Assembly: GCA_002842145.1 (NCBI GenBank)
Contig: PHCF01000055.1
Span: forward strand, 1 to 47,810
Reading direction: 5' to 3'
Source of the DNA: Betaproteobacteria bacterium HGW-Betaproteobacteria-6
GTDB taxonomy: Bacteria; Pseudomonadota; Gammaproteobacteria; Burkholderiales; Rhodocyclaceae
DNA length: 47,810 nucleotides
Below, one piece after another: positions 21,166 through 31,896 of this stretch. The position numbers and the translations under genes were made by a program. Every line of letters starts with the position of its first letter. Position 1 is the first letter of the stretch. The notes under the pieces are model-generated. The model was not told the DNA's origin. It ran no database searches and saw only the letters and a list, made by a program, of their open reading frames with translations.

Positions 21166-21828
21166 ATGAAACTTTCCAAAATTGCATCTGCGCTCACAGT
21201 GGCTGGCGTACTTGCCACGTCGCTCCCGGCCAACGCTTCGAGCGCACTTTTTTCAGGCTTTGGCCTGCCCAGTTCCGATGCCCTGCTAACCGGCGCCACG
21301 GTCGTTGATTTCACGTCGCTCACCGCTGGCATCTATACATCGCTGACTACGGGCAACGTCACCTTTGGTGGCGGGGGGGGTAGTTTTGTTATTACTAACA
21401 ACTTGGGGGGGGACTACAACACTCAGGGCCGTAACCTGCAAAACCTGCACGGTCAGGGCAGTACGACCATTCTCGATTTTACTTTCGCCAGTCCGGTCAG
21501 CGCCTTCGGCTTCAATTTCGGCGCTTCGAACGAAGACTGGAGCCTCGCCATCTACGACGCGGCCAACAACATTATCGAGAGCCAAATTCTCAACCAGACT
21601 TGGTTCAGCAATGCCGGCGATTACTTTGGCATGGCAACATCCGGAATTGCCAGCGCCCGCCTGACGCAACTGACCCACGTTAACGACGCGGGTGCTGACT
21701 GGATTCTGCTCGACAACTTCTCTTATGTCGGCCGCAACAATGTACCCGAACCAGAAACACTTCTGCTGTCCGGCCTCGGCCTTTTCGCACTGGCTGCCAG
21801 CCGTCGTCGAAAGATGAAGCAGCGGTAA
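21166..21828 (+). CDS. PEP-CTERM sorting-domain protein
   Basis: 220 residues. A signal peptide (1-25, ending P-A-N-A) is followed by a beta-rich domain (residues 35-190) with a glycine run (G-G-G-G-G-S) and then the C-terminal sorting signal: V-P-E-P at about 194, a hydrophobic helix (L-L-L-S-G-L-G-L-F-A-L-A-A) and R-R-R-K-M-K-Q-R. It would be exported and processed by an exosortase for surface or matrix placement; no exosortase gene is in the window. The ribosome site is GGAG. It has its own sigma-54 promoter and a strong terminator, so it is a single-gene unit. Confidence 0.9.
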   Translation: MKLSKIASALTVAGVLATSLPANASSALFSGFGLPSSDALLTGATVVDFTSLTAGIYTSLTTGNVTFGGGGGSFVITNNLGGDYNTQGRNLQNLHGQGSTTILDFTFASPVSAFGFNFGASNEDWSLAIYDAANNIIESQILNQTWFSNAGDYFGMATSGIASARLTQLTHVNDAGADWILLDNFSYVGRNNVPEPETLLLSGLGLFALAASRRRKMKQR

Positions 21829-21975: not shown

Positions 21976-23562
21976 TTAGTCAGGCAGCTCGGCGCGCTGC
22001 GGGCGCGGCGGCGGGGCGGGAAACAGCGCGGCGAGTACCTCGGCCGGTCTGAGGCCGGCCTCGTCTTTTTCATCGAGCCAGATAAATCGGCCTGCGGGGG
22101 CGCCGGCTGTGGCTGCCAGGGCGGCATCGCGTTCGGTCTGCGGATTGCTCAGGATGACGACGCGGGCGAGGTGGCCGGCCCTGGCCAGGACGCCGAGCTC
22201 ATGAATGCAGCCGGCGTTCTTGGCATTGAAGTTGCGCAGGTCCATGAGCACCACGTCGCTGATCCCGACCAGCCGGTCGAGTGCCTGTTGCCAGGTGTTG
22301 TCGTGGCAATAGCATTCGTTCACCCGGTAGCGGCCTTCGACGTCGGGCTTTAGCTCGAACTGGCGGAGCCGGGGTTCGATGTCGGCGACGCGGTTGATGA
22401 AGCGTTCGCCTAGCCGGCCGTCGATGAAGGTGAAGATGTCGTCGGCGTCGATGGTGCGGTCGGCCAGATCGGTGCCGGCGATGAGCACGGTGTTGCCACT
22501 CAGCCGCCAGCGCTCGATGACGCGGTCGAAAATGGCCTGGGCGTTGGCATCCTGCTGGAAGACGCGGAGGATGAGCAGGGTCGGCGGCTGGCCGGCGCCA
22601 GCCGGGCCAGCGAAGCCTTGCATGAGCGTGGCGCCGAGCGGTATCCACAGGAGCGGGGCAAAACAGACTACGGCACCCCAACCGAGATCGCCGATGGCGC
22701 CAAGGGTCGGGCTGATCAGGGCGATGGTCCATACCGCGGTGAACAGGTAGAAAAGTTCGGAAATGCGGCGCTCCCGGTAGCTTTTGGCCAGCCAGCGGCC
22801 AAGCGCACGGGCCGGCCACCAGGCGATCAGCCAGGGCAGCACGGCGAACAGCGTGAAGGCGCTGGTGGCGCTGGTGGCGCCCAGCCAGCCGGCCAGCCAG
22901 ACGATGAACGGGCTTTCCGCTTCGACCATCGCCGCCAGCAAGTCGAGGCCCAGTTGCGACGAGCCGCTGAGGACGATGAACAGCGGTGCCAGCCAGGGGC
23001 CAACGGCGCGCGTGGCACCACCGAGACAGAGGGCGGTGACGACAACGAGCGGCAGGCCGGTGTCGAACAGCATCCAGCCGACGATCTGGACAAAGCTGAC
23101 ATTCTCGTTGGTGCGCCAGCTCAGCAAGGCGATGGCGAGGACCAGCCAGCCAAGCATGGCGCCGACAAAACGCGGGCGGGACCAGCGGCCGATCACGGCG
23201 AGCACGGGCAGAATCGGCCAGGCATAGGCGGCGCCAAGGGTGGCCACGGTTTTGAGGGTGATCGGGCCGTCGGCGATGAACTGGGTCAGCACCGTGCGGC
23301 TCAGGGCGATGACGAGGGTCAGGCCGATGAAGGAAAAGAGCAGCCGGCGGTAGGCGTCGTCGTTGTCGGCGAGCGATGGAAACCGGGGCGGGCGAGCGAC
23401 GGGGGGCGTGCTGGCTGGCGCGCTGCCGTCGCCCGGCTCGGCCACCGGCGCCTTCATGAGGCGCTGCATGCTCCGCCGGTAGCTGCGCGCGACGACCCAG
23501 GCGCCGACCAGCGCGAGCAGCGTCGCGATGATCAGCAGGGTCAGGATCTTGCCGGAGGCCAT
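21976..23562 (-). CDS. Polytopic membrane protein with TIR/deoxyribohydrolase-like C-terminus
   Basis: 528 residues. One TM helix at 5-25, a proline-rich linker, then about seven helices between 73 and 318. The soluble C-terminus (about 325-515) has alternating strands and helices: L-L-I-L-R-V-F, T-V-L-I-A-G-T-D-L, then I-S-D-V-V-L-M-D-L-R-N-F-N followed by C-I-H-E-L-G and R-V-V-I-L-S. This pattern of D-x-V-x-x-D-L, Asn, E-L-G and R-V-x-x-L parallels the first gene of the operon (A-D-L-V-V-A-D-L, N-P-N-V, Y-E-L-G), suggesting a TIR or nucleoside deoxyribosyltransferase-like fold; E455 would be the catalytic position. It starts 3 bases after the M15 gene ends. I do not know a named family for the whole protein. 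A membrane-bound NAD- or nucleotide-acting effector is inference. Confidence 0.75.
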   Translation of the reverse strand: MASGKILTLLIIATLLALVGAWVVARSYRRSMQRLMKAPVAEPGDGSAPASTPPVARPPRFPSLADNDDAYRRLLFSFIGLTLVIALSRTVLTQFIADGPITLKTVATLGAAYAWPILPVLAVIGRWSRPRFVGAMLGWLVLAIALLSWRTNENVSFVQIVGWMLFDTGLPLVVVTALCLGGATRAVGPWLAPLFIVLSGSSQLGLDLLAAMVEAESPFIVWLAGWLGATSATSAFTLFAVLPWLIAWWPARALGRWLAKSYRERRISELFYLFTAVWTIALISPTLGAIGDLGWGAVVCFAPLLWIPLGATLMQGFAGPAGAGQPPTLLILRVFQQDANAQAIFDRVIERWRLSGNTVLIAGTDLADRTIDADDIFTFIDGRLGERFINRVADIEPRLRQFELKPDVEGRYRVNECYCHDNTWQQALDRLVGISDVVLMDLRNFNAKNAGCIHELGVLARAGHLARVVILSNPQTERDAALAATAGAPAGRFIWLDEKDEAGLRPAEVLAALFPAPPPRPQRAELPD

Positions 23563-23565
23563 GGT

Positions 23566-24363
23566 TCAGGCCAGGGCCGTGGCGCGCAGGCCGGGCACGT
23601 AGACCATGCGGCCGTGGTCGGCGATATAGCTCAGCAATTGCCGGCGATTCTCGCCGCTGCCCGGCGCCTTGAGCGAAATGTGCACCCAGCCCGAGTTGGG
23701 GCCTTTGGCCGGGTCGTAGCACTCGCAGATGATCTGGTCGAAAGCCTTGAGGTTGTCCTTCGCCCAGTTGGCCAGAGCCAGCGTGCTGACGCCGACGATC
23801 TCGATGTCGCAGGCTTCGCCGCGCGCATGCTGGCTGGTGCTGAGCCAGCTCGCCGGTTTGTTTTTCAATGCGCGTTCGAGCGGGTGGCCGCGAAAGACGC
23901 TGTTCGGCGTGAAGCGGCCGAAGTGGTCGCGGATCGGCTGGAGGACTTCGCGGGCGAGGTGGATGGCGGCGCGCAGTTCGCGGTCGGAAGGGAACGCATT
24001 GGCGATGCCGCGGCGGTCGGCGAGTTCCGATCGGGTCAGTTCATGGATCAGGAAATTGGGCGCAATGCGCGTGTCGGGACGGATGTTGGCCAGCGTGAAT
24101 TGCGAAATTGGCTCATTTTTCCGGTCGACCGTAGCAATCGCCGAGCGCGAGGTGCTGCGCGACCGGGTGATGGGCCGGATAACTGCCGGCGCCGGGTTGG
24201 CACGCGGTTTCGTCGCCCGCGTGGTGGCCAGCTTGGGCGGCACGGCTGTCGCCCTGGCGCTGGCGGCTGGTTCGGGATTTGCCGGGGCGGCGCTCCGGGC
24301 AGTGGCTTTGGACGCGGCAGGGCGCCGGCTGCGGGGTTTGGCCGAGGCGGGACGGGGGCTCAT
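23566..24363 (-). CDS. M15-family peptidoglycan peptidase
   Basis: 265 residues. The C-terminal domain (about 100-250) is an M15A-type zinc peptidase: N-F-L-I-H-E-L-T-R-S at its start, zinc ligands in S-T-S-Q-H-A-R-G-E-A-C-D-I-E, and G-W-V-H-I-S for the third histidine. Relatives cut D-Ala-D-Ala or peptide bonds of peptidoglycan, often as phage endolysins. The first 80 residues are low-complexity Ala/Pro/Arg/Ser with no signal peptide, and residues 77-87 (A-T-V-D-R-K-N-E-P-I) are encoded by a copy of the interspersed repeat. The start overlaps the stop of the CHAT gene by ATGA. A decayed second copy lies at 20668-20900. Confidence 0.85.
   Translation of the reverse strand: MSPRPASAKPRSRRPAASKATARSAAPANPEPAASARATAVPPKLATTRATKPRANPAPAVIRPITRSRSTSRSAIATVDRKNEPISQFTLANIRPDTRIAPNFLIHELTRSELADRRGIANAFPSDRELRAAIHLAREVLQPIRDHFGRFTPNSVFRGHPLERALKNKPASWLSTSQHARGEACDIEIVGVSTLALANWAKDNLKAFDQIICECYDPAKGPNSGWVHISLKAPGSGENRRQLLSYIADHGRMVYVPGLRATALA
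24099..24135 (-). repeat. 37-bp interspersed repeat, copy 7 (inside M15 gene)
   Basis: Head GCTACGGTCGACCGG intact, tail diverged (about 30 of 37 by eye). It is read in frame as part of the N-terminal extension of the M15 peptidase. Confidence 0.85.
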
Positions 24364-27300
24364 GCGAGGTCCTCCTTGATCTGGTCGATCAGTCCGGCGA
24401 TGGGGGCATCGTCGGCGACATTGGCGCGCAGGAAATCGAGGTGTTCGGTGACGGATGAACGCTCGCGCACGCTGGCCCCGCGCAGGATCGCCTGGCGGTA
24501 GGTCTGCCTGGCGGTTTCACCCGTCGCCGCGCCCTTCTTGCCGCGCCGGGTTTCGGCCAGGGCGTGGACCAGGTCGAGATCGGCCAGGCTGGCGCCGTCC
24601 CAGAAGTTCGGGGCGGTTTCGTTGCGCCGCTCGAGTTCCGTGCGCAGGCGGGCGACGTCTTGCTTGAGCGTGGCCAGCCCGGTCAGCGGCGCCTGATCGA
24701 TGGCCTGGTCGGGGTACAGTCGGCGAATGAGCAGGGCGGCGCTGGCCCAGTTGGTGTAGGCATAGGGGCTGGCCTGGCGGGCGTAAGCGTCGCGGTAGTG
24801 GGCGGCCATGTTGACCAGGGCTTCGCGGCGGCCGCCGTCTGCCGTCTCGATGAGCGCCAGCCGTTTGTAGGCGCCGCCAAGCAGGCTCAGGCGTTCGCTG
24901 GTCTGGCCGTTGGCGGCGAGCGCAGCGAGACGGCTTATCGCCTGCTCGATGTCGTGGCGCAGGCTGGCCCGCAGGTGGTCGTCGCGCTGACTGTCGTCGG
25001 CCGCCAGCCAGCGGCTGCCGGCCTGCCTGATTTCGTAATTGGCCAGTTGCTCGATGACGCGCACAGGGCATTGGCCGCGTTCAGCGACGAGCGCGGCGCG
25101 CAGGCCGGCGATCGCCTTGTCCCAATGGCCTGCCTCGCCCCAGGCGAAGCCGAGCGCGGCGGCGACATCGGCACGACCGGTCCACGCCTGTTGGGCCGGC
25201 GGGATGCGGCACAGGCGGCGTTCGATGCGTTCGGCGATGTCCGAACTGTCGCCGCCGTCGCGCAGGTCGCTGGCCAGATTGTCGAGGTCGACGGCCAGTT
25301 CGTGTGGCGTGACATAGGGCGGCGCTTCGGCGCGGCGCGCCTCGCCGTCGTGCGACAGGCGGAAATTCGGATCGCCGTAGCACTGGTAGGCGCCCCAGGT
25401 ATTCACGTTTTCGCAGACGATGAAGATTTCCTCGCGGGCGGCACGGACCGCTTCGCCGAAGAAGCCGCCGCTCACCATGTGGCGGTAGAAGGCTTCGGCG
25501 AAGATCTTGCCGGCGATGTCGTCCACCGCCCAGCCGGCGGCGACGACGGCGGCGAGGACGCCGGGTTCGGTCTTGCCGTGGCCATCGATGAGGCCCAGGT
25601 GGCAGCAGTTGATGAAGACCAGTTCGGGCACCCAGCGCATCTGGTCGATGTCGCCGGGGGTCAGGATGGTGTCGATGCCGATCACCATGCCCGAGCGGGG
25701 GACGGCCATTTTCGCCGACTGGTATTGATGCACGCCGTGCCCGGCGAGGTGGAGGATGCGCCATTTTTCGCGGTGCAGCGCTTCGAGGATGGCCGGTGTT
25801 CGCTCGTTGACGCGGTCGGTCACTTCGTAGCCGGCGTTGGCCAGGGTGCCGACGACGCTCAGCGCCTCATCGCGGGCGCCGGGCAGGTCGGCGAAATCGG
25901 ACGCGTTGTCGAGATCGGGGTTGCCGATGACGAGCGCCGTGTTGCCCGGCGCATAGGCCGGCCGGGCGCGGAAATGGCGGGTCTTGAACTGGCGGATCAT
26001 GCCGGCGCTGACGGCCGGCGGACGCGGGCTGGCGCCCCAGCGGTCTTCGAGCAATTCCCACGGATAACGCGCCGAGCGTTGGTCGACGAGCATCACGAGG
26101 TTGCCCTGCTGGGCCGACAGTTCCTTGATGCGTACGGGCAGGAGCAGTTCGAACAGCGTCTTGGCCGCCTCGGCATTACGGTTGGTGTCCTGGCTGGCCA
26201 GTTCGATGAAGGAGTCGGCCAGCGACAACTGGCCAGTGGCCATGGTTTCCTCGGCGCGCGCCTTGTCGGTCGGGAAAATGAAGCGCAGCGCCTGGTCGTT
26301 GTGCTCGTCCTCGATGATTTCCAGGCGGTGCCACCACTCCGGCGCCTCGTCGGTGCGCAGGCGGTGCCGGCCGGCCTGGCCGGCTTCGATGGCGGTGGCG
26401 TCCCAGCGCAGGCTGGCCGCCAGCTCGGCGTTGTCGACGGACTTGCGAATGGCTTGGGCGGCGGCGATGGCGAGGTCTTCGTAGAGTTCGACGAATTCGA
26501 CCTGGTCGATGACCACCCGGCCGTCCATCTGGTTGGCAACCAGCCGCGCATTGGTGGCAATCGCCGCGCGCAGGACGGCTTCAACGGCGTCGCCGATCGG
26601 CACGCCGCCGGCGCCGGTGCCGATCAGCAGGCAACTGACGGCGGCCGAACGCGGCCGGCTGGCTTCGCCGAAACGGTCGTCCGGCCAGTGGGCGACGGCC
26701 AGCGCGAAATCGAGCAGGGCGCTGCGCATGGCTTCTTCGAGCTGGCCGGGGCCAAGCTTGCCGACTTCGCCGAGGCCGACGACGACGGCGCCGGCCGGCT
26801 TGGCGCTCGGGCTGTCGTTGAGGAAGAGGCTGCTGGTGCCGAGCGGGCCGGGGTAGATGCCGAGATCGGCGCGGCGCGACAGGGCACCATCGAGTTGCCG
26901 GTCGAGCGCCTTTTCGGCGCTGACGATGGTGTCGCCCTGGTAGTGGCCGACGACCACCGGGTGCCGGGCGTAGGCCAGGCTGCCGTGGGTGATGCCGACC
27001 CGGATGACCTGGCCGTCTTGTTCGCCATGCCCGCGGTCAACCGGAATTCCGCCCGAAAATCCAAAGCTGCCGATGTCGTCCGGGCCGGGGATGCTGTCGG
27101 CCACCGGCAGCGAGGGCAGGACGAAACGCTCTTCGAGGCCGGCGCCGCGGGCGCGGCTCGGCGGTGTCGCCGGGAGCAGCGTCGTGCTGCCCTTGACGAG
27201 CAGGTCGAGGTAGCCGGGGAAAGCCTTGGGCTGGGCGCACAGGGCGTCGTGTGCGGTGTTTTCGACATACCACACGGGGACGCCGGGCAGGCGGCCGGAA

Positions 27301-29732
27301 TCCCAGCTCACCGTGCCGTCGCCGGCGGCGGTGGCGATGAATTCGAGCTTCTTGCGCTGGCTCGCCGGCTCATCGTCACGGCTGACCAGCTGGTAGTCGA
27401 TGACCGTAGCCGGCTGGCAGCCGGCCACGTAGAGCATGAGCGGGTCGGCCGGCGCGGCGCGCAGGCGTTGCCAGGAGGCGGCAGCCGCCTGGAGGGTGGC
27501 CGGGCTGGCCGTTTCCCACGTCGCCTCTGTGCCTTGCTGGATCGCCTGCCAGTGGGTGAGGTCGGTGAAATCGGGGTCGTTTGGCGCGAAGGGCAGCAGT
27601 TCGAGCAGGCCGGGGTAGTCGCGGACGATGCCGATGATGTCGTCGGTGCCGTGGGTGATGTCGAGCAGCGTCAGCTTGGCCTGCGTCGGATTGAAGCCGG
27701 TCAGCCAGCGTACCGCTTCGTAGGAGCCGAGGTTGGGCGTGCCGAGCATCAGGAAGCGGCTGCCCGGCAGGCGGGAAATACGCTGCCAGAGGGCGCTGCC
27801 GGGGCCGCCGTCGGCGATCATGGCACGGACGACGAGGCCGCCCATCGAATGGGCGACAAGGCGCACCGGCTGTTGCGTGCGCTCGGCCCGGTCGACCAGC
27901 GGGGCCAGCGTTTCCGCCAGGTGCGCCGCGGCATCGCGGATCGAGTGGCGCCAGTCGTAGGGAAAAATCTCGACGTCGTGGCTGCGCTCCAGGAAGTCGA
28001 CGAGCGGGCCGTAGAAGTCGTCGACCAGACCGACCGGCGCGATGTCCGGCTTGCCCATGCGCAGCTTGCCGAGGCCGCCGGCGAACAGGGCCAGGTAGTT
28101 GAGCCAGATCGACCGGTCGCCGGCCTTGAGCTCGCTGCCCATGGTGCCGGGCAGGACGACGGCGATGGGCCGCGGCAGGTTGTCGGCGCGGTGGCGAATG
28201 AGGGTGCGGGCGGCGCGCGGCGCCTTGGCCTCGATGGGCAGGAAACCGCCCGTTTCCTGGTCGCTGCGGGTCAGCGCCGTGCGCAGCCAGTTGATGCTCT
28301 GGCCGTTGGTGAAATAGCGGAAATGATTGACCTTGGCACCCCGATCCTTGCGGTAGCGGGCGCCACCGTTGAGGCGCGGCAGGCCGCCGAGCATCGAGGC
28401 GGTATCGACGACGAGGTCGTGCTCATCCTTGTAGAACCAGTCGGTGGCCAGCACCTTGAGCGTGTTGAGCAGCGTGTCGCCGGCCTCGATGTCGCCGGCG
28501 ATGACGGCCAGGTCGGCATCGGTGGCCAGTTCGGGCAGGCTGTTGAGGAGTCGGGTCAGGGCCGAGCCGGGAATCATCGCCTCGATGCCGGGCAGGGTGC
28601 GCGGGTCCGTGCGCTCGGCGACGACGGCCTGGATGAAATCGACGGCGCCGCCGATGCCGAGCGAGCCGAAGGACAGGTAATCGAGCACCGACAGCCAGCG
28701 GTCGAGCCGGCCGGAAGCCAGCGTCGTGCCGCGGGCCGGGCAGGCGACACGGGCAAAGCGGCTGACGCGGATTTTCTTCTTGCCGAGCAGGGTGACGAAT
28801 TTGACTAGCAACTCGCGGTCGGCGGCATAGGCCGCGTTGCGCGCCTTCTCCTCGGCGGCGGCAAGCGGGGCCAGGCCCATTTGCGGGGCAATGCTACGGT
28901 CGACGGCAAAAAAGGTCTCAATTTGACGTGGCGTCAGCACCTCGGCCAGCTGCCGGCAGCCCGACAGGCAGAGCAGTTCGCCAACCAGCCCGCCGCGCGA
29001 GTGCGAGACGAGATGCACCTCGGCGCCCTCGGGCAGGCGTTCGAGCAGGGCGTAGGCGTTCTGGATCGGGCTTTCGGTCAGCGTCCGGTGCTCGAAGGCG
29101 AAAACCCGGTCGCCGTAGGTCAGGGCCAGGCTCTCGCGCAGCTTCCGGGCGTCGGCGTTGTGCGGATCCCACAGCTTGCCGTAGCCGCCCGTCGTGCTCG
29201 ACGCCGTGCCGTGGATGAAGACGAGGAGTGGCCCGGGGGCGGCGGGCAGCGGGGCGGCGCCGGGAACCGGCACGAGCGTCAGCGTGTCGCCAGCGGCGAT
29301 GCGGTAAAGACCCGGCGTCTTGTTCTCGAGCGATTTTTCCTCGAAAGCTTTGCCGATCTTGCCGGCCACCTTTTTGCCGATGTCGACACCAAAAAATTCC
29401 AGCACGCGTATGGCCAGCCCGGCTGCCCCGCGTTCGCTGACGACGGCGCGGCGCGGCGTCAGATGGGTGAATTCCCAGGCGCCGCCTTCACCGCGCGGCG
29501 GCGGGTTGCCGTATTCGCGGGTCAGGTCGTCGGCCCGGCTCCACAGTACGAAGCCGTTTTCAAGCGCGACGCGGACGACGGTTTCCGGTTTGACCTCGAT
29601 TTCCTCGCCGGCCCCGTCGCGGGCGCTGCCCGGCGCCAGGCGGTAAAGCGGTTGAGGCCCGCCGGGCTGGCTGGCACCGCGGCTGCCAGCGCCGATTTTC
29701 GTGCCGCGAATGCGTATCGTCCGTGTGCTCAT
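24360..29732 (-). CDS. Giant double alpha/beta-hydrolase, CHAT protease and TPR protein
   Basis: 1790 residues. Hydrolase 1 spans about 160-430, with V-F-I-H-G-T at 171-176 and nucleophile elbow S-H-S-R-G-G (S245). Hydrolase 2, of LCAT/lipase type, spans about 520-845, with P-G-T-M-G-S at 528-533, A-H-S-M-G-G (S629), and likely Asp 805 (G-D-G-T-V-S) and His 828. Residues 908-1105 form an alpha/beta domain I cannot name. The CHAT caspase-like protease spans about 1130-1460, with His 1332 (L-A-G-H-G) and Cys 1377 (F-I-N-C-C-H-L-G). Helical TPR-like repeats fill 1515-1790. No signal peptide is present, so it is cytoplasmic. The TPRs probably sense or recruit a partner, CHAT would be activated by it, and the lipase-type domains could attack membranes. 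Start ATG 29732 has ribosome site AAAGGAG. Two degenerate repeats lie within the coding frame. Confidence 0.88.
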   Translation of the reverse strand: MSTRTIRIRGTKIGAGSRGASQPGGPQPLYRLAPGSARDGAGEEIEVKPETVVRVALENGFVLWSRADDLTREYGNPPPRGEGGAWEFTHLTPRRAVVSERGAAGLAIRVLEFFGVDIGKKVAGKIGKAFEEKSLENKTPGLYRIAAGDTLTLVPVPGAAPLPAAPGPLLVFIHGTASSTTGGYGKLWDPHNADARKLRESLALTYGDRVFAFEHRTLTESPIQNAYALLERLPEGAEVHLVSHSRGGLVGELLCLSGCRQLAEVLTPRQIETFFAVDRSIAPQMGLAPLAAAEEKARNAAYAADRELLVKFVTLLGKKKIRVSRFARVACPARGTTLASGRLDRWLSVLDYLSFGSLGIGGAVDFIQAVVAERTDPRTLPGIEAMIPGSALTRLLNSLPELATDADLAVIAGDIEAGDTLLNTLKVLATDWFYKDEHDLVVDTASMLGGLPRLNGGARYRKDRGAKVNHFRYFTNGQSINWLRTALTRSDQETGGFLPIEAKAPRAARTLIRHRADNLPRPIAVVLPGTMGSELKAGDRSIWLNYLALFAGGLGKLRMGKPDIAPVGLVDDFYGPLVDFLERSHDVEIFPYDWRHSIRDAAAHLAETLAPLVDRAERTQQPVRLVAHSMGGLVVRAMIADGGPGSALWQRISRLPGSRFLMLGTPNLGSYEAVRWLTGFNPTQAKLTLLDITHGTDDIIGIVRDYPGLLELLPFAPNDPDFTDLTHWQAIQQGTEATWETASPATLQAAAASWQRLRAAPADPLMLYVAGCQPATVIDYQLVSRDDEPASQRKKLEFIATAAGDGTVSWDSGRLPGVPVWYVENTAHDALCAQPKAFPGYLDLLVKGSTTLLPATPPSRARGAGLEERFVLPSLPVADSIPGPDDIGSFGFSGGIPVDRGHGEQDGQVIRVGITHGSLAYARHPVVVGHYQGDTIVSAEKALDRQLDGALSRRADLGIYPGPLGTSSLFLNDSPSAKPAGAVVVGLGEVGKLGPGQLEEAMRSALLDFALAVAHWPDDRFGEASRPRSAAVSCLLIGTGAGGVPIGDAVEAVLRAAIATNARLVANQMDGRVVIDQVEFVELYEDLAIAAAQAIRKSVDNAELAASLRWDATAIEAGQAGRHRLRTDEAPEWWHRLEIIEDEHNDQALRFIFPTDKARAEETMATGQLSLADSFIELASQDTNRNAEAAKTLFELLLPVRIKELSAQQGNLVMLVDQRSARYPWELLEDRWGASPRPPAVSAGMIRQFKTRHFRARPAYAPGNTALVIGNPDLDNASDFADLPGARDEALSVVGTLANAGYEVTDRVNERTPAILEALHREKWRILHLAGHGVHQYQSAKMAVPRSGMVIGIDTILTPGDIDQMRWVPELVFINCCHLGLIDGHGKTEPGVLAAVVAAGWAVDDIAGKIFAEAFYRHMVSGGFFGEAVRAAREEIFIVCENVNTWGAYQCYGDPNFRLSHDGEARRAEAPPYVTPHELAVDLDNLASDLRDGGDSSDIAERIERRLCRIPPAQQAWTGRADVAAALGFAWGEAGHWDKAIAGLRAALVAERGQCPVRVIEQLANYEIRQAGSRWLAADDSQRDDHLRASLRHDIEQAISRLAALAANGQTSERLSLLGGAYKRLALIETADGGRREALVNMAAHYRDAYARQASPYAYTNWASAALLIRRLYPDQAIDQAPLTGLATLKQDVARLRTELERRNETAPNFWDGASLADLDLVHALAETRRGKKGAATGETARQTYRQAILRGASVRERSSVTEHLDFLRANVADDAPIAGLIDQIKEDLA
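27030..27066 (+). repeat. Degenerate repeat copy in a linker of the CHAT gene
   Basis: CGCGGTCAACCGGAATTCC followed by GCCCGAAAAT: head strongly matching, rest partly. On the coding strand it specifies residues 889-901 (F-G-F-S-G-G-I-P-V-D-R-G), the linker after hydrolase 2. Confidence 0.5.
28893..28928 (+). repeat. Degenerate repeat copy in hydrolase 1 of the CHAT gene
   Basis: GCTACGGTCGAC is exact, then GGCAAAAAAGG and CAATTTGA. The coding strand gives I-E-T-F-F-A-V-D-R-S-I (residues 271-281). Confidence 0.5.
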
Positions 29733-29792
29733 TTTGGGTCTCCTTTGGTGCTGCCCGAGGCGAAAGGGTGACGCTAAAAAATGACATTCAGA

Positions 29793-31772
29793 TTACCAGA
29801 GCTGGCGCGTGTCGAGCCAGCTCACCTGCCCGGTTCGTCGCTTCACCTCGCGCACCATGTGCGCCGTGCCGCCTGGCCCGTCGCCACCGCCGCCGTTCCA
29901 CAGGCAGATGAAACGGACTCGGTGCAGACCTTGGGTCAGGGCGCTGTAAAGCAGCCACAGGTTGCAGCGTTCGAAGGCGTCCATTTCGCGGCCGTCACGC
30001 TCGCGCGGTAGCGGGCCGAGTTCGACCGGCATGATGCGCGGCGCCAGGGTGAGTTTGTCGCGCAGGGCGAAATAACGCTGGCGCCAGGCCTCGCCGTTGG
30101 CCGAGGGGAGCACCGAGGCTTCGATGAAATCCGGCTCGGCAAGCGGCAGCAGCATCTGGAAAGGCACGCCGCGGGCGACGCAGGCTTCGCCGAAAAGGAT
30201 GTCGCCACCAGCCGCGCCCTGGGCGAAAGCGAGGTCGTCCGGCCCGGCGCCCAGGCTGTCGAGCAGCTCGCCGATGCGGGCGGCGGCGACCGGCTCCCGG
30301 TCGGCCGGGAAACGTGGCTCGGCGCGGTCCGGGCTGTCGATCATGTGGCCGGAAAAGAGAAAGACCTTGTCCGGCCGGCGCTTGCTGTGCGGCGGCTTGA
30401 GGCGCTGCATGGCCCGCTCCAGCGTGGCCAGGGCCGCCTTCACGTTGTCTCGGCGAAAGGCGAGGAGGTCGAGCAGGGAGAGGTGTTTCCAGGTTGCTTC
30501 GAGGGCCAGCCAGTCATTGTCGACATGGGCGATGGCCTCGCGAAAGGCGGCGCCGACGGTGGCCGGGTCGCGGTCGATGATGGCCAGGGCGCCGAGATTG
30601 GCCAGCGCCCAGTAGCGGTTGGCGTCGTCGCGCTCGCATGAGGCGGCCCACGCCACGCCGCCGGCCATGATGGCCGCTTCGTTGGCATAGCGCGGGTCGC
30701 CGGTCAGTTCGCGGTAGACGTGCATCATCATGACCGCGTTGATGCCCGACAGATAATGCCCGGGGCTGGCCCGGAAAGCCCGGCTGTAGCTGAGGATGGT
30801 GTCGCGCAGCAGGGCGTCCTCATAGGCCGCGTCGCGGCGCATCTGCTCCGGCGTGTGGCCTTCGACGCGCCAGGCGTTCACCCATTCCGCCTTGTCCAGG
30901 CGACCGAGCAGTTCCCAGGCTTCGATGTCGTCCTGGTTATCGTCGATGAGCTTCTTGAAGGCGGCGCGTGCTTCGTCGGTCCGCCCGAGGCGTTGCAGGC
31001 AGACGCCGCGCTGGCGGGCAGCCTCGTGATTGTCCGGGGCGAACTCGAGGGCTAGCTCACATTGTTCGAGGGCAAAATGGAAGTGCGCCATGCGGCGCAG
31101 CGCCTCGCCGGCCTTGAGGTGGGCCTCGACACGCAGCGGCGTGGCCGGGGCCTCGTCGGCCAGGACGAGAATGTCCTCCGGACGGTTGGCGTTGCGCGCC
31201 ACTTCGATGCGGGTTGCCCATTCGTCGTGGTTTTCCCAATACTGCAGCGCGTTGCCGACACGCAGCCGGGTCCAGTCCGGCTCCTCCAGGTTGGGCAGCA
31301 GGCTGTACACCGGGCTGGTCTTGCGGCCGCGCCAGGCGCTCAGGGTGTTCTTCGCCATCGTTGCCAGCGCCGCGATGTCGGCGGCCAGCACCTGCGGGTC
31401 AGGGGCGCCGTCCCGCAGGTGATAGGTCAACTTGCGGTCAGTGTAGATGTCGAAAGGCTGAGCCGCCCGCGGTCCCTGGACGAGAATGACGCCGCGCGCC
31501 CGCAAGGCGTGGCGGACGCCGAGTTCGTACCAGACATTGGGGTTGTCGAGCGTCAGGTCGGCGACCACGAGGTCGGCCATCAGCAGTTCCTGAAAAAGGT
31601 CGGCGCGAATGTCGCCGGCTCCTTGTTCCTCGTCGGCCCGCAGGACTTCCAGCCCGGCGCACTCCAGTGCCGGGCGGATCAGTTCGCCGTAAACCCGGTC
31701 GAAATCGATCGGGCAGCCGTCAGCAGCGGCTTTGATCCCGAACGGCATGGCGACGAAGACATGCAGACTCAT
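29793..31772 (-). CDS. TIR/deoxyribohydrolase-like, TPR and SLOG-like protein
   Basis: 659 residues, first gene of the operon. Residues 1-120: V-F-V-A-M-P-F-G, A-D-L-V-V-A-D-L-T and N-P-N-V-W-Y-E-L-G (77-85), the signature of TIR-like/nucleoside 2-deoxyribosyltransferase-like domains, with E83 as likely catalytic residue. Residues 210-455: TPR helices including a TRAFs-binding (DUF4071/TPR-S) type stretch around 315-360 (A-Y-E-D-A, H-Y-L-S-G-I-N-A-V). Residues 468-655: V-F-L-F-S-G-H-M-I-D, A-A-G-G-D-I-L-F-G-E-A and L-L-P-L, a SLOG/LOG-like nucleotide-binding fold. The start is ATG 31772 with ribosome site GAGGGG; an upstream ATG at 31826 is in frame but lacks conserved sequence. Sensor and effector in one protein is the inferred role. 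A 60-base gap separates it from the CHAT gene. Confidence 0.85.
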   Translation of the reverse strand: MSLHVFVAMPFGIKAAADGCPIDFDRVYGELIRPALECAGLEVLRADEEQGAGDIRADLFQELLMADLVVADLTLDNPNVWYELGVRHALRARGVILVQGPRAAQPFDIYTDRKLTYHLRDGAPDPQVLAADIAALATMAKNTLSAWRGRKTSPVYSLLPNLEEPDWTRLRVGNALQYWENHDEWATRIEVARNANRPEDILVLADEAPATPLRVEAHLKAGEALRRMAHFHFALEQCELALEFAPDNHEAARQRGVCLQRLGRTDEARAAFKKLIDDNQDDIEAWELLGRLDKAEWVNAWRVEGHTPEQMRRDAAYEDALLRDTILSYSRAFRASPGHYLSGINAVMMMHVYRELTGDPRYANEAAIMAGGVAWAASCERDDANRYWALANLGALAIIDRDPATVGAAFREAIAHVDNDWLALEATWKHLSLLDLLAFRRDNVKAALATLERAMQRLKPPHSKRRPDKVFLFSGHMIDSPDRAEPRFPADREPVAAARIGELLDSLGAGPDDLAFAQGAAGGDILFGEACVARGVPFQMLLPLAEPDFIEASVLPSANGEAWRQRYFALRDKLTLAPRIMPVELGPLPRERDGREMDAFERCNLWLLYSALTQGLHRVRFICLWNGGGGDGPGGTAHMVREVKRRTGQVSWLDTRQLW

Positions 31773-31896
31773 TGGCGCCCCTCTGTTGGTCCTGCTTATG
31801 TTTTTTGTGCTTCGACTTGCCTGCATACAAGTCGTTGAATCATCTTAGACCGATGATTGTGTCATGCCAAGGGACATTCTTGCCGGCCAGATCAAT

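Follow-up and report, generated by a model that had tools for sequence, protein, structure and literature searches.

The operon and its four proteins

The DNA analysed here (the window: 47,810 nucleotides of contig PHCF01000055.1 from the Rhodocyclaceae member Betaproteobacteria bacterium HGW-Betaproteobacteria-6) carries on its minus strand an operon of four genes, A, B, C and D, which we lean towards reading as a modular self-killing system (Table 1). The close packing described in the original prediction, with a 60-base gap, a 4-base overlap and a 3-base gap between the genes, was confirmed from the coordinates, and conservation of the operon elsewhere, in other genomes, excludes a chance arrangement. 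The domain reading in that prediction was largely upheld, and its interpretation as a nucleotide-triggered conflict or cell-death system finds partial support. Judged by sequence, the common element is B, a protein in which two lipase-type domains are tied to protease-type and sensor-type domains, set among exchangeable partners (signal enzymes, proteases and wall enzymes).

Table 1. Features of the operon in the window (Pfam matches with accession and E-value)
Feature	Position	Strand	Description
Gene A	29793-31772	minus	659 amino acids (aa); DNPH1/NDT (nucleoside deoxyribosyltransferase)-like domain, TPR-S, YpsA-like SLOG
A, residues 1-144	31341-31772	minus	deoxyribohydrolase (DNPH1/NDT)-like domain
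A, residues 180-462	30387-31235	minus	TPR-S helical region
A, residues 467-659	29796-30374	minus	SLOG domain
A-B spacer	29733-29792	minus	60 bases (b); probable caspase deletion scar
Gene B	24360-29732	minus	1790 aa; two alpha/beta-hydrolases, weak M17_N match, CHAT, TPR-S
B, residues ~170-474	28311-29225	minus	alpha/beta-hydrolase 1 (DUF7379); PF24096, 5e-32
B, residues ~520-830	27243-28175	minus	alpha/beta-hydrolase 2 (LCAT-like); PF02450, 3.7e-8
B, residues 927-1005	26718-26954	minus	weak M17_N (macro-like) match; PF02789, 0.0012, under its cut-off
B, residues 1188-1454	25371-26171	minus	CHAT; H1332, C1376-C1377; PF12770, 1.6e-20
B, residues 1537-1664	24741-25124	minus	TPR-S; PF20308, 2.1e-12, 47.9 bits against a cut-off of 27.6
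Gene C	23566-24363	minus	265 aa; M15 peptidase core, basic N-terminus of variable length; PF08291 (M15_3), 8.5e-6
Gene D	21976-23562	minus	528 aa; membrane helices in residues 1-317, Rossmann-like tail 325-517, invariant E455

The proposal that A is a deoxyribohydrolase-TPR-SLOG protein is supported by a Pfam match to TPR-S (PF20308, 7e-14, 52.6 bits against a cut-off of 27.6) and by a predicted model of A, in which the TPR-S region resembles ASK1 and the SLOG domain is YpsA-like. Its Glu motif, NPNVWYELG, is present in all 13 full-length A proteins and, judged by predicted fold and motif, A would be the carrier of a nucleotide- or NAD-processing-type domain. The start codon used here fits many homologues (659-663 aa), with an alternative ATG upstream at 31826. 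PADLOC matches were confined to A, which hit a TIR effector model (2e-6) and, less strongly, two others, and none of the four proteins matched an NCBIfam model above its cut-off. Hydropathy analysis found no hydrophobic segments in A, B or C.

The double alpha/beta-hydrolase-CHAT-TPR architecture foreseen for B is borne out by Pfam matches to DUF7379, LCAT, CHAT and TPR-S. Putative catalytic triads assigned by eye in hydrolase 1 (S245/D439/H470) and hydrolase 2 (S629/D805/H828) are kept in 31/31 aligned B proteins, the check covering 31 of the 36 clustered proteins (1700-2000 aa) and leaving out five partial or fused ones. The family is large: of 7991 scored candidates, 3714 had a match across residues 900-1500, and the names on the 120 relatives listed are at most of domain type (CHAT domain-containing, TPR repeat protein). 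No relatives of B were found in phage records, and neither B nor C had a sequence match among solved structures.

The M15_3 match and motifs that we take to be the M15 zinc site, found in 20 of 20 C proteins, agree with the assignment of C as an M15 peptidase whose predicted substrate is peptidoglycan; its first 90 residues have a net charge of +15. D had been described as polytopic with a TIR-like tail, of which the first part stood, but the tail is Rossmann-like and the tests do not single out TIR. No Pfam match to D exceeded its cut-off, and a structure search with the predicted model (pLDDT 83.5) had no TIR chains among the matches listed, which excludes nothing. Matches of D to XRCC4 (E 0.04) were taken as chance.

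Distribution in the genus and the caspase gene

The titles of related contigs name Azonexus, Dechloromonas, Rhodocyclaceae, Thauera and Rhodoferax. B was matched at E 0.001 in 34 of the 76 genomes of the genus, three of them with short CHAT-only matches, leaving 31 genomes with B (genomes are numbered G and loci L; B is split over contigs in G007, G062 and G075 and only 36-46% identical in G044). D, at an identity of at least 54%, is present in 30 of these 31 and lies no more than 3 kb from B in 29, with G043 as the exception. A caspase gene (PF00656, 4.9e-26) adjoins B in 28 of the 31 at a distance of 27-665 b, just upstream and usually between A and B; it is metacaspase-like, its nearest solved structures being GSU0716 and metacaspases. 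The predicted four-gene order is thus kept in other genomes, but most relatives have a caspase inserted between the first two genes.

The remaining parts vary. A is reduced to its SLOG part in some loci (e.g., L026 and L055) and absent from L046 and L050, while the wall enzyme of G044 is a LysM-M15_4 protein. A caspase gene without B was seen in G066, but the contig ends inside the gene. One B-D frame in G020 (2674 aa, L048:6518-14542), which contains ambiguous bases and comes without C, is either a fusion or an assembly error and was not used as a fusion.

Probable loss of protease functions in the clade of the window

The three B genomes without an adjoining caspase are that of the window (G000) and its two nearest relatives, G052 and G053; no caspase was found elsewhere in the window genome with a query that matched in 49 of 149 relatives. 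At its start the A-B spacer matches the one between A and the caspase in L034, and its end is the ribosome-binding-type element before B, as would be expected from a clean deletion, so that the spacer is probably the scar of a lost caspase gene. In addition, 13 residues have been deleted in frame from CHAT in the window copy of B (25550/25551, residues 1394/1395, in the domain core), just after the Cys-Cys loop, and at the same site the B protein of G053 (L024) is missing 34 residues, including the catalytic cysteine(s), also in frame. CHAT is intact in G052 (L026), and among the 31 aligned B proteins gaps of at least five residues at this site are limited to the window and G053 copies. Both deletions could be assembly errors, though both preserve the frame.

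Based on comparisons with L024 and L026, the ratio of nonsynonymous to synonymous substitution rates was 0.094 for A (L024 only), 0.17-0.19 for B, 0.22-0.28 for C and 0.18 for D, with 0.14-0.15 for the neighbouring gene xseA; these low values indicate that the rest of the operon is maintained under purifying selection. Since the caspase is missing exactly in this clade and the CHAT core is shortened, the window operon is a derived form in which proteolysis is probably reduced. The caspase-less, CHAT-damaged clade constitutes a natural experiment on whether both proteases act in one cascade.

Association with contractile injection systems

In many relatives a cluster for contractile injection, with sheath, gp19 tube, CIS_tube, gp25, spike, AAA ATPase and Pvc16_N, is found close to the operon; a second type of extracellular contractile injection system (eCIS) cluster has eCIS_core and baseplate J together with sheath, tube and AAA. 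With eCIS presence defined by a Pvc16_N match above 57 bits (23 of the 76 genomes; weak hits of 27-41 bits in ten genomes, including that of the window, were dropped), B occurs in 21 of 23 eCIS genomes and 10 of 53 others (p = 2.6e-9 in Fisher tests, which carry no correction for kinship). Restricted to high-quality genomes, the counts were 10 with both, 9 with B only, 2 with eCIS only and 30 with neither (p = 3e-4), and with gp19 tube as the marker, B was found in 20/24 against 11/52 (p = 4.5e-7). On a midpoint-rooted rpoB tree of 60 of the 76 genomes (21 with B, 17 with Pvc16_N, 15 with both), from which 16 genomes without a detected rpoB, ten of them carrying B, were left off, parsimony gave 10 changes for B and 9 for eCIS. 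Comparison of the dependent with the independent model of evolution on this tree yielded a likelihood ratio of 31.8 (4 degrees of freedom, p = 2e-6) for Pvc16_N and 26.2 (p = 3e-5) for the tube marker. In 13 genomes (of the 23 with eCIS and the 31 with B), the Pvc16_N marker and B are no more than 10 kb apart, and by strand and position the two are divergent, with at most 3.4 kb between them, in 11 of those 13.

In G043, D sits at the distal end of the eCIS locus (L059:12118-13716) and B is 410 kb away. In G065 and G066, a lone tail-sheath gene stands beside the caspase at L069:2360-3799 and a sheath relative is found at L079:2344-3795 on a 4.9-kb contig, with no other eCIS gene seen nearby, possibly as remains of a decayed cluster.

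Particles of eCIS are freed by lysis of the producer, and some eCIS loci are missing a lysis cassette, according to PMC10598620. The operon could be a lysis or death module dedicated to eCIS that lyses the producer to free particles or executes death on firing, with the window copy as a remnant after eCIS loss. Although the proximity of marker and B, an association that survives the tree with both markers, the retention of D at the eCIS locus of G043 and the lone sheath gene beside the caspase argue for this explanation, we consider it unlikely: 10 of the 31 B genomes, including that of the window, have neither marker, and the operon genes in the clade of the window are still under selection. 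Conversely, eCIS occurs without B in G006 and G047, and a tube match without B in G059 and G060; the tree is also built on a single gene. Outside the genus no significant link was detected (Pvc16_N in 3 of 7 genomes with B and in 10 of 66 without it, p = 0.10), and tblastn searches with 14 eCIS proteins found nothing in 13 non-genus B loci while matching two genus control loci with eCIS genes. The window genome, which is 94% complete, has no sheath or gp19 tube match; a 151-aa Pvc16_N-like frame in it (37.6 bits, L070) was judged unrelated from its ordinary-looking neighbours, assessed by eye.

The self-killing and eCIS-release readings overlap, and on the reading that we favour the self-killing system was recruited to eCIS producers within the genus, perhaps as the lysis module that they lack. 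It is quite doubtful that the full sequence of events held, in which an apoptosis-like operon acquired together with eCIS served as the missing lysis and release module of Azonexus/Dechloromonas and, after eCIS loss, was disarmed stepwise by deletion of the caspase and then excision from the CHAT active site. A sensor-type death operon that tracks eCIS over the genus tree makes the question of producer lysis directly testable.

That A-D are instead payloads injected by eCIS into other cells, with the basic, variable N-terminus of C as a loading tag, is highly improbable. The operon adjoins eCIS in relatives, the charge of C would suit such a tag, and eCIS-associated toxins have been reported to include TIR and alpha/beta-hydrolase proteins (PMC11297309), but against this stand the 1790-aa length of B, the membrane location of D and the retention of the operon where no eCIS marker is present.

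Partners outside the genus and defence neighbours

The 13 B loci outside the genus were examined over flanks of up to ~10 kb (one-sided for L031; the short contigs L032, L035 and L036 were left out), with caspase, SLOG, M15 and D counted by our own gene calling and BLAST clusters and TIR and amidase genes by Pfam. Near B were a caspase in 7 loci, a SLOG stretch in 6 and D in 2. Five loci have a TIR_2 gene, with one of the five matches below cut-off, four have a peptidoglycan hydrolase, which in one of them is a non-homologous amidase, and two have restriction-modification (R-M) or bacteriophage exclusion (BREX) genes. One of two TIR-like frames in L027 was scanned and fell below cut-off. BREX, type I R-M and type III R-M genes adjoin B in one locus each, the type III genes lying upstream in the genus genome G024. 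A gene pair encoding a patatin and a TIR-like-TPR-S protein is found downstream of D in L022, L034, L038, L056 and L081; in L021, whose D gene lies elsewhere, the pair comes after C. The L022 pair (L022:17838-20347) matches patatin and TPR-S in Pfam as well as PADLOC effector models. Eight plasmid relatives of B were found at 30-34% identity, and among the four opened, an Azotobacter copy lies beside type I R-M and Fic genes and a Rhizobium copy between TIR genes.

Such neighbours fit a stand-alone anti-phage abortive-infection system, with the eCIS link explained by hitch-hiking in the same variable loci. This explanation is possible, if somewhat doubtful. It would account for the TPR-S, SLOG, TIR, caspase and patatin partners, for R-M or BREX neighbours in three loci and on one plasmid, and for the patchy distribution of B in 31 of 76 genomes. 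The eCIS association survives the tree, however, and B, C and D have no PADLOC match. A location in a defence island could not be sustained for the window: a PADLOC scan of 10 other window proteins revealed no defence genes, and the candidate island was rejected as the only matches were weak ones of SduA and PDC-M43B to two large signalling-type proteins.

A proposed self-killing mechanism

For a modular self-killing system, we infer every enzymatic step, the trigger and the cell itself as target as follows. The deoxyribohydrolase-like domain of A, or the TIR proteins near B elsewhere, would make or process a nucleotide or NAD-derived signal, for which the SLOG and TPR-S domains in A and B would act as sensors. 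Reading of the signal would release B, whose two lipase-type domains may then attack membrane lipid, while C would attack peptidoglycan and D would place its putative nucleotide-binding tail at the membrane. Where the operon has five genes, the caspase and the CHAT protease could add a proteolytic step; given the loss of the caspase in the clade and the damage to CHAT in two of its three genomes, the window copy would work largely or wholly without proteolysis. That A, B and C have no export signal fits a cytoplasmic device harming its own cell once triggered.

Several observations weigh against self-killing. No export signal or hydrophobic segment is visible in C by hydropathy, so that an attack on the wall would require a prior breach of the membrane, and the M17_N match in B is under the Pfam cut-off. 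The system names in Pfam, NCBIfam and PADLOC include none that would suit B, C or D as a system, and the scanned window proteins offer no defence context. Two of the 13 non-genus loci (L040 and L041) have no recognisable partner, and two Paracoccus plasmid copies of B lie among metabolic genes. The lipase-type domains could be metabolic instead. A housekeeping function in envelope or lipid stress would agree with these metabolic neighbours, with the chromosomal site near the superoxide dismutase gene and xseA and with purifying selection on the operon, but we regard it as very unlikely in view of the patchy presence and the caspase, TIR, SLOG and patatin partners.

Relation to known systems

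Systems that join TPR-S to TIR, caspase and SLOG partners have already been predicted, and the TPR-S sensor systems (PF20308, "Tetratricopeptide Repeats-Sensor") were reportedly described by Burroughs and Aravind in 2020. The operon resembles these, with TPR-S above the Pfam cut-off in both A and B, an ASK1-like helical region, and relatives with TIR, SLOG, caspase and patatin partners. It differs in that its hub carries CHAT and a weak M17_N match besides two lipase domains, in its M15 and polytopic partners and in its association with eCIS. No description of the operon or its link to eCIS was found in the literature covered, which lay mostly outside subscription journals and included the accessible parts of PMC8213781, PMC11297309, PMC10907252, PMC8195603, PMC12237407 and PMC10598620.

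Thoeris likewise combines a NAD- or nucleotide-processing enzyme with a SLOG sensor, as ThsB (TIR) and ThsA (SIR2-SLOG), whereas both domains are on one protein here (A), and none of the four proteins matched a Thoeris model in PADLOC even with E-values up to 1 allowed. The patatin that follows the operon in six related loci, of which that of L022 matches the PADLOC phospholipase effector, recalls cyclic-oligonucleotide-based anti-phage signalling systems (CBASS) with a patatin effector. Unlike these, the window operon has no patatin, and Pfam and PADLOC revealed no CD-NTase among its four proteins, the rest of the genome not having been searched. Phage and tailocin lysis cassettes resemble the operon in pairing a peptidoglycan hydrolase (C) with a membrane protein, linked in relatives to a tail-like machine, but D, polytopic, 528 aa long and with a soluble tail, does not look like a small holin, and the operon adds sensor, lipase and protease domains. 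In Streptomyces, regulated death of the producer is linked to a contractile injection system through the membrane protein CisA (PMC12237407), to which the operon, with its membrane protein and its position beside a contractile system in relatives, may be analogous.

Neighbours and distant relatives of D

Relatives of D at ~30% identity are found in L071-L073 and L076-L078 among housekeeping-type genes (mutL- and miaA-like, assigned by eye) and provided no lead. In the window, D is adjoined on the opposite strand by a gene for a protein with a PEP-CTERM motif (21166-21828).

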